In this document: positions 19,703-26,460 of the stretch, one piece after another
Numbering within the stretch: position 1 is the first letter of the stretch
How the letters are laid out: each line of letters starts with the position of its first letter
NCBI RefSeq assembly: GCF_030824455.1
Contig: NZ_JAVBXR010000013.1
Coordinates: forward strand, 1-64,000
Source of the DNA: Desulfobulbus sp.
GTDB taxonomy: Bacteria > Desulfobacterota > Desulfobulbia > Desulfobulbales > Desulfobulbaceae
Direction of reading: 5' to 3'
DNA length: 64,000 bases
The notes under the pieces: generated by a model
Database searches by the model: none
Seen by the model: only the letters and a program-made list of their open reading frames with translations
Told to the model about the DNA's origin: nothing
Program-made: the position numbers and the translations under genes

Positions 19703-19741
19703 CCGGCGCCAACACGCCGCGCCCGTTGGTCCCGCCGGTCA
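19700..19741. terminator. Hairpin between the convergent kinase and arsR genes
   Basis: TGACCGGC (19700-19707) pairs with GCCGGTCA (19734-19741) between the two convergent gene ends. Neither strand has a T-tract, so termination is only suggested. Confidence 0.35.
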
Positions 19742-20089
19742 ACCGCAGGCCGCGGTCTCTTTGCCGCGCAGGTAGGTTTCCAGGCGTTCCCTGTCCGCCC
19801 GGCAGACCGCGCCCCCCACAAAACGCTGAATAAGCAGAGCCAGTTGCGCCTGATGCAAGCCGTCCATCTCCTGCTGCAAGCGGTAATACATCCACACGCC
19901 GCCCCGACGGTCCTGCAGCCAGCCGCAGCGTTTCAGGGTGGCCAGATGGCGGGAAACGGTCGACTGCGGCATGTCCAGGGCCTGCATCAGATCGCAGACG
20001 CACAACTCCTGCCCAGACTGGAGCAAAATCAGGATCCGCAGCCGGGTTTCGTCGGCAAGCGATTTGAAAATTTCCACGGTTGTTTGCAT
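19739..20089 (-). CDS. arsR: ArsR-type arsenite-responsive repressor
   Basis: 116 aa winged-helix repressor, starting at the internal Met that gives the family N-terminus (MQTTVEIFKSLADETRLRIL). ELCVCDLMQ carries the paired cysteines (CxCDL) that bind As(III)/Sb(III) in classical ArsR. STVSRHLATLKRCGWL is the recognition helix region, and the wing is DRRGGVWMYYRL. It is divergent from acr3-arsC, which it presumably controls. Confidence 0.93.
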   Translation of the reverse strand: MQTTVEIFKSLADETRLRILILLQSGQELCVCDLMQALDMPQSTVSRHLATLKRCGWLQDRRGGVWMYYRLQQEMDGLHQAQLALLIQRFVGGAVCRADRERLETYLRGKETAACG

Positions 20090-20413
20090 CAGGCCACCAT
20101 ATCGTGAGCAGGAATTCCCGTCAAACATTCCCGAAACAGGCTCATCCATCTCGAATTACAGATACACAGCCTGCTGCCAACCCAGCGCGAGCACACATCC
20201 GCCAAGATGTGACCGCTATACGAACTAACACAATAGTAACATTTTCACAACAAAACAAACAATTAAGCAGCCGCGCACCCTTTTGCCGATTGACCCCGCA
20301 CGCATTGCACCAAGGCTTGACGCATCCGTACAGGCGGATTAATATCATGGCCACAATTGGATCAACGCCGGCCAACAGGCCCGCCCCCTTCCCTCTTTCA
20401 TCAAGGACGCGCC
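20090..20413. other. arsR-acr3 divergent control region
   Basis: This 324-base gap holds the strong acr3 promoter described separately. It also has an AT-rich stretch (20221-20270) that probably carries the arsR promoter on the minus strand. I could not identify a convincing ArsR operator palindrome by eye. Confidence 0.5.
20317..20345 (+). promoter_or_regulatory. Sigma-70 promoter of acr3-arsC
   Basis: TTGACG (20317-20322), a 17-base spacer, and TAATAT (20340-20345). The transcript would start near 20352, about 60 bases before the acr3 ATG. Confidence 0.75.
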
Positions 20414-21514
20414 ATGCGACAGCACCCTAAACAGCTTGGTTTTCTTGACCGCTTCCTCACCCTGTGGATCTTTCTCGCCATGTTCGCCGGCGTCATGCTG
20501 GGGTATGCCGCACCCGGCGCGCCGGACCTGATCAACGCCTTCCAGGTCGGGACCACCAACATCCCCATTGCCGTCGGCCTGATCATGATGATGTACCCGC
20601 CCCTGGCCAAGGTCCGGTACGAAAAATTGGGCCAGGTGTTCCGCAACGGCAAGGTCTTGCTTCTCTCCCTGGTGCAAAACTGGGTGATCGGCCCGGCGCT
20701 GATGCTGTTGCTGGCCATCGCCTTGCTTCCCGATCACCAGCACTATATGGTCGGCCTGATCCTCATCGGCCTGGCGCGCTGCATAGCCATGGTCATTGTC
20801 TGGAACGATCTGGCCGACGGCGACGCCGAATACTGCGCCGGCCTGGTGGCCTTCAACTCGATCTTTCAGGTGCTGTTCTTCTCCGTCTACGCCTGGATCT
20901 TCATCACCGTCATTCCCCGCTGGTTCGGCCTGACCGGGGCGGTGGTCGACGTCTCCATCGGCCAGATCGCCCAGTCGGTGTTCATCTACCTGGGCATTCC
21001 CTTTATTGCCGGCATGCTCAGCCGTTTGATCGGCGTCAGGATGAAAGGCGAGGACTGGTACGAAACGGTGTTCATCCCGCGCATCAGCCCCCTGACCCTG
21101 ATCTTTCTCCTCTGCACCATCCTGGTGATGTTCTCGCTCAAGGGCGAGCACATCGTCCAATTGCCCCTGGACGTGCTGCGCATCGCCCTGCCTCTGACCG
21201 TCTATTTTCTGGTGATGTTCGCGCTCTCCTTCTTTCTTTCCATGCGGGCCGGGGCCACCTACGAACAAACCGTGACCCTGAGCTTCACCGCCGCCTCCAA
21301 CAACTTTGAACTGGCCATTGCCGTTGCCATCGCGGTGTTTGGCGTCAACTCCGGCGAGGCCTTTGCGGCGGTTATCGGCCCCCTGGTTGAAGTGCCGGTG
21401 CTCATCGCCCTGGTCAATGTGGCCCTCAGGCTGAAAACCAAATACTTCCCGCAGGAACAGCGAACCCTCGCCGGGGTCTGCCACGTCCGCGCGCCCCAGG
21501 AGAACAGATCATGA
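20414..21514 (+). CDS. acr3: Arsenite efflux permease Acr3
   Basis: 366 aa, ten hydrophobic segments, in the BART superfamily. The start at 20414 has AAGGA upstream and gives the usual N-terminus ([16 protein letters not shown]). The family's [18 protein letters not shown] carries the conserved Cys required for As(III) transport. Further conserved features are [29 protein letters not shown] and [13 protein letters not shown]. It exports arsenite using the membrane potential. Its stop overlaps the arsC start by ATGA. Confidence 0.95.
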
Positions 21515-21978
21515 CAGACCCGGCAAGCCCGGATCGGGAAGCAACCGCGCCGCCCGCCAAGACCACCATTCTCTTCCTCTGCACCGGCAATGCCTGCCGC
21601 AGCCAGATGGCCGAGGGCTGGGCGCGGCATCTGCGCGGCGAGGTTGTCGCCCCCTATTCCGCCGGCATTGAACGGCACGGCTTGAACCCGTATGCGGTGC
21701 GGGTCATGGCCGAGGCCGGCGTCGACATTTCGCGCCAGCACTCCAAACTGACCACCGAGTTGCCGATTGCCGCCTTTGATTATGTGATCACCCTCTGCGG
21801 CCATGCCCACGAGACCTGCCCCTATTTCCCGGCCAAAACCATGCATCACGGCTTCCCTGATCCTCCCGAACTGGCGAAGACCGCCACGACGGAGGAGGAA
21901 ATCCTTGCGGCCTACCGCACGGTGCGCGATCAGATCCGCGATTTTGTTGCAGCCCTGCCGGAGTCGCTCCGCACGTAG
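21511..21978 (+). CDS. arsC: Arsenate reductase ArsC, low-molecular-weight phosphatase type
   Basis: 155 aa. The P-loop [14 protein letters not shown] gives the nucleophilic Cys and Arg. [10 protein letters not shown] supplies the second and third redox cysteines of the thioredoxin-coupled class, and FPDPPE carries the acid/base Asp. It reduces As(V) to As(III), which the coupled Acr3 exports. A 17-residue N-terminal extension before the core is longer than usual. ATGA overlap with acr3. Confidence 0.95.
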
Positions 21979-23093: not shown

Positions 23094-24014
23094 ATGTCTG
23101 TTTATGTTTTTGGTCACAAAAGTCCGGATACCGATTCTGTCACCGCTGCAATTGCCTATGCTGAGTTGATGAAAGCCCAAGGGGAAGATTATGTTCCCGT
23201 TATGCAGGGCAAACTGAATCCTGAAACAGAGACCGTACTCAAACGGTTTGGCTTTGCCGCTCCCGAGATCATGACCGACGCAGCCGGCAAAAAGGTTGCT
23301 CTGGTTGATCACAGCGACCTGGCGCAGGCTCCGGACAATCTCACTGCCAACGATGTTGTTGCCGTGGTTGACCATCACAAAATCGGCGACGTCACCACCA
23401 ATCAGCCGATCTTTTTCTGCAACATGCCGGTTGGCTGTACCTGCACCGTGCTCAAGATCCTCTACGATGTGAACGGCGTGGCTGTTGCGCCCAAGGTTGC
23501 CGGCCTGATGCTTGCCGCCATCCTCAGCGATACCGTGAATTTCAAATCCCCGACCTGCACCCCTGAAGACAAGAAAGCAGTCAAAGAGTTGGCAGCCATT
23601 GCCGGCGTCACCGACTGCGACGAGCTGTTCATGGAAATGCTCAAAGCCAAGAGCGCTGTTGCCGGCGTTCCTGCCATGGATCTGCTCCACCGCGACTACA
23701 AAGACTTCGATATGAAGGGCAAAAAAGTTGGCGTTGGCCAGCTTGAGCTTGCCACCCTGGAGCAGGTTGCCGAGATGCGCGACGCCCTCTACAACGCCAT
23801 GAAAGAGCAGAAAGGCAGCGAGCGTCATTCCGTGCTGCTGATGCTCACCGATGTTGTCAAGGAAGGCACCGACCTGATGGTCATCTCCGACGACCCGGCA
23901 ATGATCGAGACCGCCTTTGGCGCCAAGCTCGCCGGCAACTCCATGTGGATTGACGGCATGATGAGCCGCAAGAAACAGACCATCCCGAATCTGCAGAAGG
24001 CTTTCGGCTGCTAA
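23094..24014 (+). CDS. ppaC: Manganese-dependent inorganic pyrophosphatase (family II)
   Basis: 306 aa DHH-family enzyme that hydrolyses pyrophosphate. The metal-binding motifs are all visible: VFGHKSPDTDS (His and two Asp), LVDHSD, VVDHHK, and AAILSDTVNFKSPT. The C-terminal DHHA2 domain carries the substrate-binding MSRKKQ. GGGAGG lies before the ATG. In sulfate reducers, pyrophosphatase activity drives ATP-sulfurylase-dependent sulfate activation. The codon use is less GC-biased than that of its neighbours, which is often seen in highly expressed genes. Confidence 0.96.
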   Translation: MSVYVFGHKSPDTDSVTAAIAYAELMKAQGEDYVPVMQGKLNPETETVLKRFGFAAPEIMTDAAGKKVALVDHSDLAQAPDNLTANDVVAVVDHHKIGDVTTNQPIFFCNMPVGCTCTVLKILYDVNGVAVAPKVAGLMLAAILSDTVNFKSPTCTPEDKKAVKELAAIAGVTDCDELFMEMLKAKSAVAGVPAMDLLHRDYKDFDMKGKKVGVGQLELATLEQVAEMRDALYNAMKEQKGSERHSVLLMLTDVVKEGTDLMVISDDPAMIETAFGAKLAGNSMWIDGMMSRKKQTIPNLQKAFGC

Positions 24015-24033
24015 GCAGGATTGTTCCAGCAAT

Positions 24034-24067
24034 AAAAAAAGGCCGCCCTCAGGGGCGGCCTTTTTTT
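24034..24067. terminator. Bidirectional Rho-independent terminator
   Basis: Seven A, GGCCGCCC, a TCAG loop, GGGCGGCC, seven T. It serves ppaC on the plus strand and the gene ending at 24105 on the minus strand. Confidence 0.95.
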
Positions 24068-24104
24068 ATTGGCGCGTGTCTTTGCGTACCCGCATTGTTC
24101 GTTG

Positions 24105-25115
24105 TTATTGCGGCCCGCGCTGCTGTTGGTCCGACTGCCGCCGGGTCTGCCGAACCACCGCCTCGACTTCCGGATCGTTGGCCACGGAGAGTTTCAAGGC
24201 GACGAACCGGTTGGCGAAAATGGACGTTTTCCCCTCCGTCGCCGCCGGTGAGGACGGCTCGCCTTCCTGCCAGCGTCCATGCCCGTTCCAGTTGACGTCA
24301 AGCACGCCCAGGTATTTGCCGCGGGTTTCGGTCTGGGCGATCAAGGTCTTGTTGACCAAGAGAGGCGTCATGTTGCCAACCACGTGTCCAGACTGGAGAA
24401 TGAGGTCGATGGCGTCATGGCTTCTGGCGATGTCCTGATTGTCCGGCAAGGAATAGTTGGACAACAACAGGATGAAATCCGCTTTGCCTTGCACCTCGGC
24501 CAAAACCGCCGGCAAACTGTCCCGCCAGGCGAGCGCCTGCGTCTCCCCGGCCTCGGCGCGCACAGCAGTGTGGTCGGCAAGCCCCAACACCGCGACCTTG
24601 AGCCCATTGACCTGACGCCACAGCACCGGCACCAACAAAGGCTTGCGCGTTTCGGGGTCGACCAGATTCAACGAAACCCAACTCCATCCAGGCGGTTTGT
24701 GATGCTGACGAAGGAAGGACATCCCGGCCGCCAGGTCCCGACTGCCGACGCCGGCCACGACGCCGCCCATTTTCTGGTTGGCCTCAATCACGCCGGCGGC
24801 GGTGATTTTGGCAGCCGTCATATTTTCCGGCGGCAAGACGTCGGCCGGGAACAGCAGATTGCCGCTGTTGACAATCAAGGCCGGACGATTCGGATCCGCA
24901 GCCAACTGTTTGGTTAAAAACGCTTTTTTGGACAGACCGCCCAATTTGTGGGAGCCTCAGCCGCAGCCGTCGAGTTCGCCGAGGTTGTCGTTGGCGTAGA
25001 TGAACCGCAGCTCGGCCGCCTCCGCCCCGCCCCAGCTCAAAAGGGCCAGCAGGCAGAAAGCGGCCAGCACCGGTTGCAGTCTATTTTTTCCGCGTCTGTT
25101 GTTCGTGTTGTTCAT
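24105..25115 (-). CDS. Probable selenoprotein: exported 5'-nucleotidase/metallophosphatase-like protein with Cys-Gly-Sec
   Basis: The frame runs from ATG 25115 to TAA 24105 (336 aa) with a single in-frame UGA at codon 53 (24959-24957). Residues 1-34 form a signal peptide (hydrophobic VLAAFCLLALLSW, cleavage near AEA/A). The mature start, ELRFIYANDNLGELDGCG, then UGA, then GSHKLGGLSKKAF, matches UshA-like proteins with a CGCG...GGL motif, so the UGA replaces a Cys. A SECIS-like hairpin lies 12 bases after the UGA (separate entry). The metallophosphatase metal ligands look lost: GVGSRD stands where GNHE is expected and QSGHV where GHTH is expected. A redox role through Cys51-Gly-Sec53 is therefore likelier than phosphatase activity. 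The 5' end overlaps rarA by 35 bases. The alternative is a nonsense-interrupted pseudogene. Confidence 0.75.
24928..24944 (-). promoter_or_regulatory. Candidate bacterial SECIS hairpin
   Basis: On the minus strand, UUGGGC (24944-24939) pairs with GUCCAA (24933-24928), six pairs including one G-U. The five-base loop GGUCU begins with G. The loop starts 18 bases after the UGA. That meets the known bacterial SECIS rules as I recall them: stem just downstream of the UGA, small loop with a G in its first two positions, and a 16-37 base distance. Confidence 0.65.
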
Positions 25116-26460
25116 GGTGTTGCGCTCGCTGTTTGAGTATCTGTTTCCATTTGGTGAGGCGATCTTTGATCACCGCCTCGTGTCCTCGGTTGGTCGGCTC
25201 GTAATAGACGTTGCCCGCAAGTTCCGGCGGCAGGTGCTCCTGCAGGACCAGCCCGTCGCGGTCGTCGTGGGCGTACTGATAGCCGTGGCCGTAGCCGAAA
25301 TCCTTCATCAGCGCCGTGGGCGCGTTGCGAATGTGCAGGGGCACCGGCAGGGAGCCGGTGCGTTCAATATCCGCCCGCACCCGGTGGGTGCAGACGTAAA
25401 CCGCATTGCTTTTCGGCGCCGTGGCCAGGTAGGCGGCCGCCTGATACAGGGCCAGTTCGCCCTCCGGAGAGCCCAGCATGTGATAGGCCTCGCGGCAGTT
25501 CAGCGCCACCTGCAAGGCCTGGGGATCGGCGTTGCCGATGTCCTCCGAGGCAAAGCGAATCATCCGCCGGGCAACGTAGAGGGGATCCTCGCCGCCGGTC
25601 AGCATCCGCCCCAGCCAGTAGACCGCGCCGTCCGGGTCGCTGTCGCGCAGGCTTTTGTGCAGGGCCGAAATCAGGTTGTAATGCTCCTCGCCCCTGGCAT
25701 CGTAGCGCAGGGTCTTCTGCTGCAGGGTTTCCCGCACCTGGGCCGCGGTGATGGTTGACGCGCCCGGGGCAATCTCCGCCTCTGGTTGGCTCCGCAACAA
25801 CTCCAAGGCAAGCGCGACCGTGGTTTCCAGATGATTGAGGGCCCGGCGGCAATCGCCGTCCGCCGCGTCGGCAAGCAGGGTCAAGGCCTCGTCGTCGATA
25901 GCCAACCCATGACGACCCAGGCCGAGGCTTGCGTCCGCAAGGGCCCGCCGCATCACCTGCTTGAGATCGTCGCGCTCCAGGGGGGCCAGCAACAGGACCT
26001 GACAGCGGGACAGCAGGGGCGCGGTGATCTGAAACGAGGGATTTTCCGTGGTCGCCCCAATCAAGGTGAGCAGGCCGCTTTCCACATGGGGTAGGAAGGC
26101 GTCCTGCTGACTCTTGTTGAAGCGGTGGATTTCATCGACAAAAAGAATGGTCGGGGTGTCGCTCCGTTCGCGCTCCACCTTGGCTTGATCGACAATCTGC
26201 CGGATCTCTTTGACCCCGGAAAGCACGGCCGAGAAAAAAACAAAATGGGCGGAAACGGTGTGAGCGAGGATGGTGGCCAGCGTGGTTTTGCCCGATCCCG
26301 GCGGCCCCCAGAGAAGCAACGACGGAATCCGGCCGCTGTCAAGCAGCTGTTTGAGGAATTTTCCTTCGCCGACCAGGTGGCGCTGGCCGACAAAATGTTC
26401 CAGTCGAGTCGGACGCATCCGGTCGGCAAGCGGGGTGTTGGCGGTTTTTGGCTCAAGCAT
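25081..26460 (-). CDS. rarA: Replication-associated recombination protein RarA (MgsA)
   Basis: 459 aa AAA+ ATPase acting at stalled replication forks. The N-terminus LADRMRPTRLEHFVGQ is diagnostic. Walker A is GPPGSGKTT, Walker B is ILFVDEIHRFNKSQQD, and sensor 1 is LIGATTENPSF. The tetramerisation domain follows (AVYWLGRMLTGGEDPLYVARR and SPEGELALYQAAAYLATAPKSN), and then RAQHHEQHEQQTRKK at the C-terminus. Its last 35 bases overlap the start of the probable selenoprotein gene, so the two are likely co-transcribed. Confidence 0.95.
   Translation of the reverse strand: MLEPKTANTPLADRMRPTRLEHFVGQRHLVGEGKFLKQLLDSGRIPSLLLWGPPGSGKTTLATILAHTVSAHFVFFSAVLSGVKEIRQIVDQAKVERERSDTPTILFVDEIHRFNKSQQDAFLPHVESGLLTLIGATTENPSFQITAPLLSRCQVLLLAPLERDDLKQVMRRALADASLGLGRHGLAIDDEALTLLADAADGDCRRALNHLETTVALALELLRSQPEAEIAPGASTITAAQVRETLQQKTLRYDARGEEHYNLISALHKSLRDSDPDGAVYWLGRMLTGGEDPLYVARRMIRFASEDIGNADPQALQVALNCREAYHMLGSPEGELALYQAAAYLATAPKSNAVYVCTHRVRADIERTGSLPVPLHIRNAPTALMKDFGYGHGYQYAHDDRDGLVLQEHLPPELAGNVYYEPTNRGHEAVIKDRLTKWKQILKQRAQHHEQHEQQTRKK

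Follow-up and report, generated by a model that had tools for sequence, protein, structure and literature searches.

Does a UGA codon within an otherwise open gene of Desulfobulbus sp. encode selenocysteine (Sec), and what would the resulting protein do? The gene lies on the minus strand of the window, as the whole 64,000-nucleotide stretch of DNA analysed is called here; its coordinates and those of associated features are given in Table 1. An earlier note on this DNA, made from the letters alone, had pointed to one UGA in a 336-codon frame, and exactly one internal TGA is indeed present there, with ELDGCG encoded before it and GSHKLGGL after it. The N-terminus of the protein has a hydrophobic stretch followed by an AEA/A-like cleavage site (read by eye from the translation), and residues 14-26 form a helix in an AlphaFold2 model, in a region of low confidence. 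With a signal-peptide-like N-terminus of this kind the protein is presumably exported, to the periplasm or the surface.

Table 1. Coordinates of the probable selenoprotein gene, its parts, and its neighbors in the window.
Feature	Coordinates	Strand	Basis
UshA-like gene, very probable selenoprotein, 336 codons and TAA stop	24105..25115	-	Frame; NF041198 279.2 bits; homologues in 70/73 genomes
Likely signal peptide, about residues 1-33, AEA/A site	25017..25115	-	By-eye reading of translation
Cys51 codon of Cys-Gly-Sec motif	24963..24965	-	Translation; Cys-Gly conservation on tree
UGA codon 53, predicted Sec	24957..24959	-	69 homologues: 63 UGA, 6 Cys
Bacterial SECIS-like hairpin, 6 possible pairs, loop GGUCU	24928..24944	-	12 nt after UGA
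mgsA/rarA-type AAA ATPase gene	25081..26460	-	Pfam MgsA_C 218 bits; 35-nt overlap with selenoprotein frame
DHH/DHHA2 gene, ppaC-like, convergent	23094..24014	+	Pfam DHH and DHHA2

Homologues were found in 70 of the 73 genomes of the same taxonomic family, the window genome counted; the homologue of one genome (G035) is partial and does not cover codon 53, leaving 69 for codon counts. Codon 53 is UGA in 63 of these (window gene included) and Cys in the other six, which is the Sec/Cys alternation that the earlier note had proposed looking for, and the homologues run past codon 53 rather than ending or shifting frame there. As judged from these alignments, UGA is conserved at this codon far beyond chance. 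The further suggestion that relatives carry the second Cys of a CGCG motif holds for the Cys at codon 53, but the motif itself is CGC (for example EPCGCKS and LSCGCSY) and not CGCG. A search of the contig database with the single protein gave no match; an alignment of ten close relatives used as the query gave 13 loci.

The Cys genes are nested inside the Sec tree. All five compared genomes of one genus (g11; completeness 69-95%) have Cys at codon 53 and no selA match, and in the two g11 genomes examined the best matches to the tRNA-Sec model are tRNA-Trp and tRNA-Ser; the sixth Cys genome, G019 of the window genus, retains selA, so that a selA match is missing from five of the six. A selA match is likewise missing from seven genomes that carry UGA; their completeness is 56-84% for six and 93% for the seventh.

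The six-pair GGUCU hairpin described in the earlier note (UUGGGC-GGUCU-GUCCAA, 17 bases) is present as a possible fold. Its distance from the UGA is exactly the same in 63 of 63 UGA genes, in all of which pairs 2 to 6 (the inner five) are standard, and each of the six Cys genes has at least one of these five pairs broken. Pair 1 is T-A in 16 UGA genes, C-G in 39, T-G in one, and non-standard in seven; it covaries, being standard in 56 of 63, and none of 20000 shuffles did as well (the shuffle ignores relatedness). The Gly codon of the loop is GGT in 53 of 63 UGA genes, versus 255 of 1347 Gly codons further downstream in the 69 genes. When the 42 nt after the UGA are folded alone, 48 of 63 UGA genes have the inner five pairs in their minimum-energy structure; for the window gene a competing hairpin is favored (-8.2 versus -6.4 kcal/mol for the expected one). 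Across the compared genes, the hairpin shows the conservation that a bacterial SECIS would. Matches to Rfam in the window are sub-threshold only and fall mostly near a terminator-like hairpin at 24030-24070; none is useful for SECIS.

The window genome has the full set of genes for Sec insertion that the earlier note had named as a check, with selA (617 bits), selB (361.6 bits), selD (364.2 bits), and tRNA-Sec (selC; 72.1 bits) all above their cut-offs. Because of the UGA/Cys alternation, the conserved hairpin, and this machinery, the gene very probably encodes a selenoprotein, into which SelB and tRNA-Sec would insert Sec at codon 53. The selD gene of the window genome (L156, G000:C101:19768-20706) itself holds one in-frame TGA; Sec-containing SelD proteins, with a TGA within selD, are known.

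An AlphaFold2 model of the window protein, built on 13 sequences, has a mean pLDDT of 82.9, falling below 50 in the Sec loop (residues 51-55). The top Foldseek match to the model is YunD (4.7e-19), followed by 5'-nucleotidases of E. coli (4.5e-18), with SoxB at 2.9e-14. A Pfam search with the protein gave no domain, even at E 10, and since a sequence-only search of the PDB is weak (best E 0.0068), the assignment rests on the model, Foldseek, and profile comparison; these support a predicted 5'-nucleotidase/SoxB-like fold in which most metal ligands are substituted.

The idea of a decayed metallophosphatase gains support both from Foldseek and from alignment with L155, a 5'-nucleotidase-like protein from the window genus that served as reference. 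In that alignment the ligand motifs are substituted as had been proposed, GSRDL standing against GNHEF and SGHVV against GSHTH. At the positions taken here, by reference to UshA, to be metal ligands, only Asp43 is kept, the others being L45, N86, S125, N220, G243, and V245; the two-metal ligand set of UshA and the 5'-nucleotidases (COG0737) is not found in the window protein. An alignment of 38 of the 69 proteins (A1) has Asp43 and the Sec/Cys column invariant, with a variable column for the Cys two residues before Sec/Cys.

C-terminal CxxCH motifs are found in 38 of the 69 proteins: four motifs in 36 of them, three in G010, and one in G068. They are absent from 31, including the window protein; all 22 window-genus proteins of the set are in this group. 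Among these 31, contig ends cut G028 and G033 early and G024 2 bases after the last codon read. All of the three long forms that were put to Pfam match Cytochrome_C554 (PF13435). In G013, a distant paralogue (L154, G013:C182) has CGU and four CxxCH motifs but no ND motif; it is a second Sec-plus-heme UshA-like frame in that genome. At loci outside the taxonomic family, multiheme cytochrome genes lie near the Sec gene in two of ten (L184 and L192, both from one other family), and a motif pattern search at another such locus, L190, gave no Sec motif.

The best explanation of these observations, and a probable one, is that the gene product belongs to family NF041198 as an exported selenoprotein, has lost its phosphoesterase site, and uses Cys51-Gly-Sec53 as a redox centre. 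The exported protein would probably go to the periplasm; its 5'-nucleotidase/SoxB-like fold would have lost the two-metal phosphoesterase site, and the Cys51-Gly-Sec53 loop at the former metal site may serve as the redox centre. In the long relatives, electrons would pass on to c-type hemes of the same chain; the window form lacks a heme domain and would need another protein as partner to take them. The CxxCH motifs of 38 of the 69 relatives favor electron transfer, although the window form is without them, and together with the CGU motif the heme fusions make a redox or electron-transfer role reasonably likely. The redox protein with a CxU site envisaged in the earlier note is in this respect indirectly supported; a CxU pair common to all members is not, as six of 29 heme-less members have Sec without Cys in the preceding four residues.

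These six fall into four changes on a tree of 67 proteins, from which G028 and G033 were dropped while G024 was kept, leaving 29 heme-less members. One protein (G025) has Sec but not a single Cys in the stretch regarded as mature, and for both reasons an internal Se-S bond would not be a requirement throughout the family. An intact Cys-Gly directly ahead of Sec/Cys is shared by 38 of 38 heme forms and 19 of 29 heme-less members, with eight changes on the tree; the heme label itself changes twice. Changed Cys-Gly spacing is accordingly confined to heme-less members (0/38 versus 10/29; Fisher p 8e-5 on rows), and this gives a handle for testing electron transfer. On the tree only two heme contrasts are independent (sign test p 0.5), so the link between the heme domain and Cys-Gly spacing is suggestive, a lead rather than a result.

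Neither neighboring gene, one mgsA-type and one DHH-type, is an obvious redox partner. The start codon of the selenoprotein frame sits within the 3' end of the mgsA/rarA-type gene; an mgsA-type match lies upstream on the same strand at 55 of 69 loci of the taxonomic family, mostly overlapping or abutting, and directly upstream also at two loci from other families of the order (L185 and L187). No such match was found at 14 of the 69 loci, including all five of genus g11 and one (G071) that offers only 163 bases upstream. A hairpin-plus-T sequence resembling a terminator (by eye) separates the selenoprotein gene from the ppaC-like gene. Elsewhere in the window, at 19739-21978, genes for an ArsR-like regulator, an ACR3-like transporter, and an ArsC-like protein adjoin one another in an apparent arsenic resistance cluster (by eye).

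The protein could instead be a hydrolase or act in sulfur transfer as SoxB does, in which case Sec would be a nucleophile or metal ligand instead of taking part in electron transfer. There is some resemblance to SoxB, with a weak match to the SoxB profile TIGR04486 (E 6.5e-10) and SoxB structures among the fold matches, and such a role would fit both the invariance of Asp43 in A1 and the persistence of Sec without a nearby Cys after the four tree changes described above. The SoxB match nevertheless reaches 37.9 of 550 bits, far below the cut-off, the positions of the His, Asn, and second Asp ligands are substituted, and the hemes of relatives point toward electron transfer; a role of this kind is unlikely for the window protein.

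Another reading concerns the residue rather than the role: the UGA at codon 53 might be translated partly or wholly as Cys by a second tRNA, perhaps in a selenium-dependent manner. The window genome has a second tRNA with a UCA anticodon (C90:117942-118036, at L160 540-636; 58.1 bits, anticodon assigned by ARAGORN), in which the discriminator base before CCA is U, where the tRNA-Sec of the genome has G. A selC* type of tRNA-Cys with U73 and a modified 8/4 structure (with a bulge in the T-stem), sometimes with a UCA anticodon, is described in a review for Proteobacteria and other phyla, accompanied in some delta-proteobacterial orders by an extra selB and cysS (PMC7609411); U73 and UCA are both present in the second tRNA, and its minimum-energy folds have a long acceptor branch, but the structures differ between copies. 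Sequences resembling this tRNA are found elsewhere in the window genus (L162, L164, L166, L170, and L172).

A second cysS match above the cut-off and the Cys at codon 53 in six relatives would also suit a Cys-inserting tRNA. That cysS match lies on a different contig from the tRNA, in a frame that reads as cysK-cysS, and the contig of the tRNA has no selB or cysS above cut-off. This frame (L180 1480-3816, G000:C100), of 778 residues, seems to join a cysteine synthase to a downstream cysteinyl-tRNA synthetase, the cysS part by model match and the cysK part by eye. Against Cys insertion, selA, selB, selD, and tRNA-Sec are all present; only one selB is above the cut-off in the window genome, so that the second SelB described in some orders is not found here; and UGA genes also occur in genomes with no second match to the tRNA-Sec model listed above its cut-off, many of these genomes being incomplete. 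Some insertion of Cys at codon 53 is possible from these sequences, and translation of the UGA by the second tRNA as set out above is quite improbable as the main account. A speculative extension, of similarly low probability, is that in the heme-less branch that includes Desulfobulbus, selenium works alone at the dead metal site, the neighboring Cys having been lost or moved in several lineages, while the codon may be contested by a selC*-type tRNA-Cys, with a switch between Sec and Cys forms according to selenium supply as the result.

That the UGA is a true stop, marking a pseudogene or the split between two genes, is vanishingly improbable and was dropped on account of the conservation across the UGA: an internal TTG does open a shorter frame downstream, as any mechanical list of open reading frames would show, but 63 of 69 homologues share the UGA at this codon, identity to the window protein along the frame is 29-60% for the 37 relatives in A1, the signal sequence lies only before the UGA with the domain after it, and the hairpin is conserved.

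The earlier note had left it uncertain whether the family was already on selenoprotein lists; it is, having been tabled with the motif CxU since at least 2008, when a COG0737 UshA-like selenoprotein with this motif appeared in the GOS selenoproteome table (PMC2398784). In the same source UshA-like, together with SelD and FdhA, is excepted from the families that have a conserved Cys-based redox motif, and the accessible part of the paper gives no function, heme fusion, or heme-less form for UshA-like (PMC2398784). The family is also included in reviews of 2022 (PMC9312934) and 2026 (PMC13188914). In literature searched with most subscription journals outside the scope, it was found only in tables, with no function or heme fusion given; one Geobacter paper mentions UshA solely within a reference. 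The window gene is accordingly a solid additional example of a selenoprotein family for which no published function was found, and its genus has members in culture; by record names, the genus includes Desulfobulbus elongatus DSM 2908. The homologue set moreover resembles a natural experiment, in which an apparent change from Sec to Cys accompanies selA loss in one genus, the hairpin decays in Cys genes, and the heme domain is gained or lost.

Among known systems, the closest is NF041198 (NCBIfam UshA_like_PCGU, "UshA-like (seleno)protein"), which has a match above cut-off in 68 of 395 genomes of a phylum sample. By its profile score the window gene is a member of this known family and not of a new one: the whole protein exceeds the curated cut-off of 275 bits (Table 1), although the single best stretch in a genome scan, 252.5 bits, does not, and the two share the UGA/Cys alternation and the Cys-Gly-Sec/Cys motif before GGL (DGCGU...LGGL in the window protein, PCGU in the name of the model). 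They differ in that the best stretch of the window protein spans positions 18-278 of the 519 of the model, the C-terminal CxxCH part, heme-binding in long forms, being absent; as the curated cut-off is still passed, the missing part marks a short form rather than exclusion. The match to NF049981 (UshA-like (seleno)protein family 2), listed with CxxU in PMC13188914, is weak (E 1.5e-9; 37.7 of 140 bits) and below cut-off. To the SoxB thiosulfohydrolase and the UshA 5'-nucleotidase the window protein is related by the same predicted fold and distant sequence similarity; at 336 residues it is too short to hold the second domain of a 5'-nucleotidase, and it differs from both in that its metal-ligand positions are substituted and a predicted Cys-Gly-Sec loop is present.
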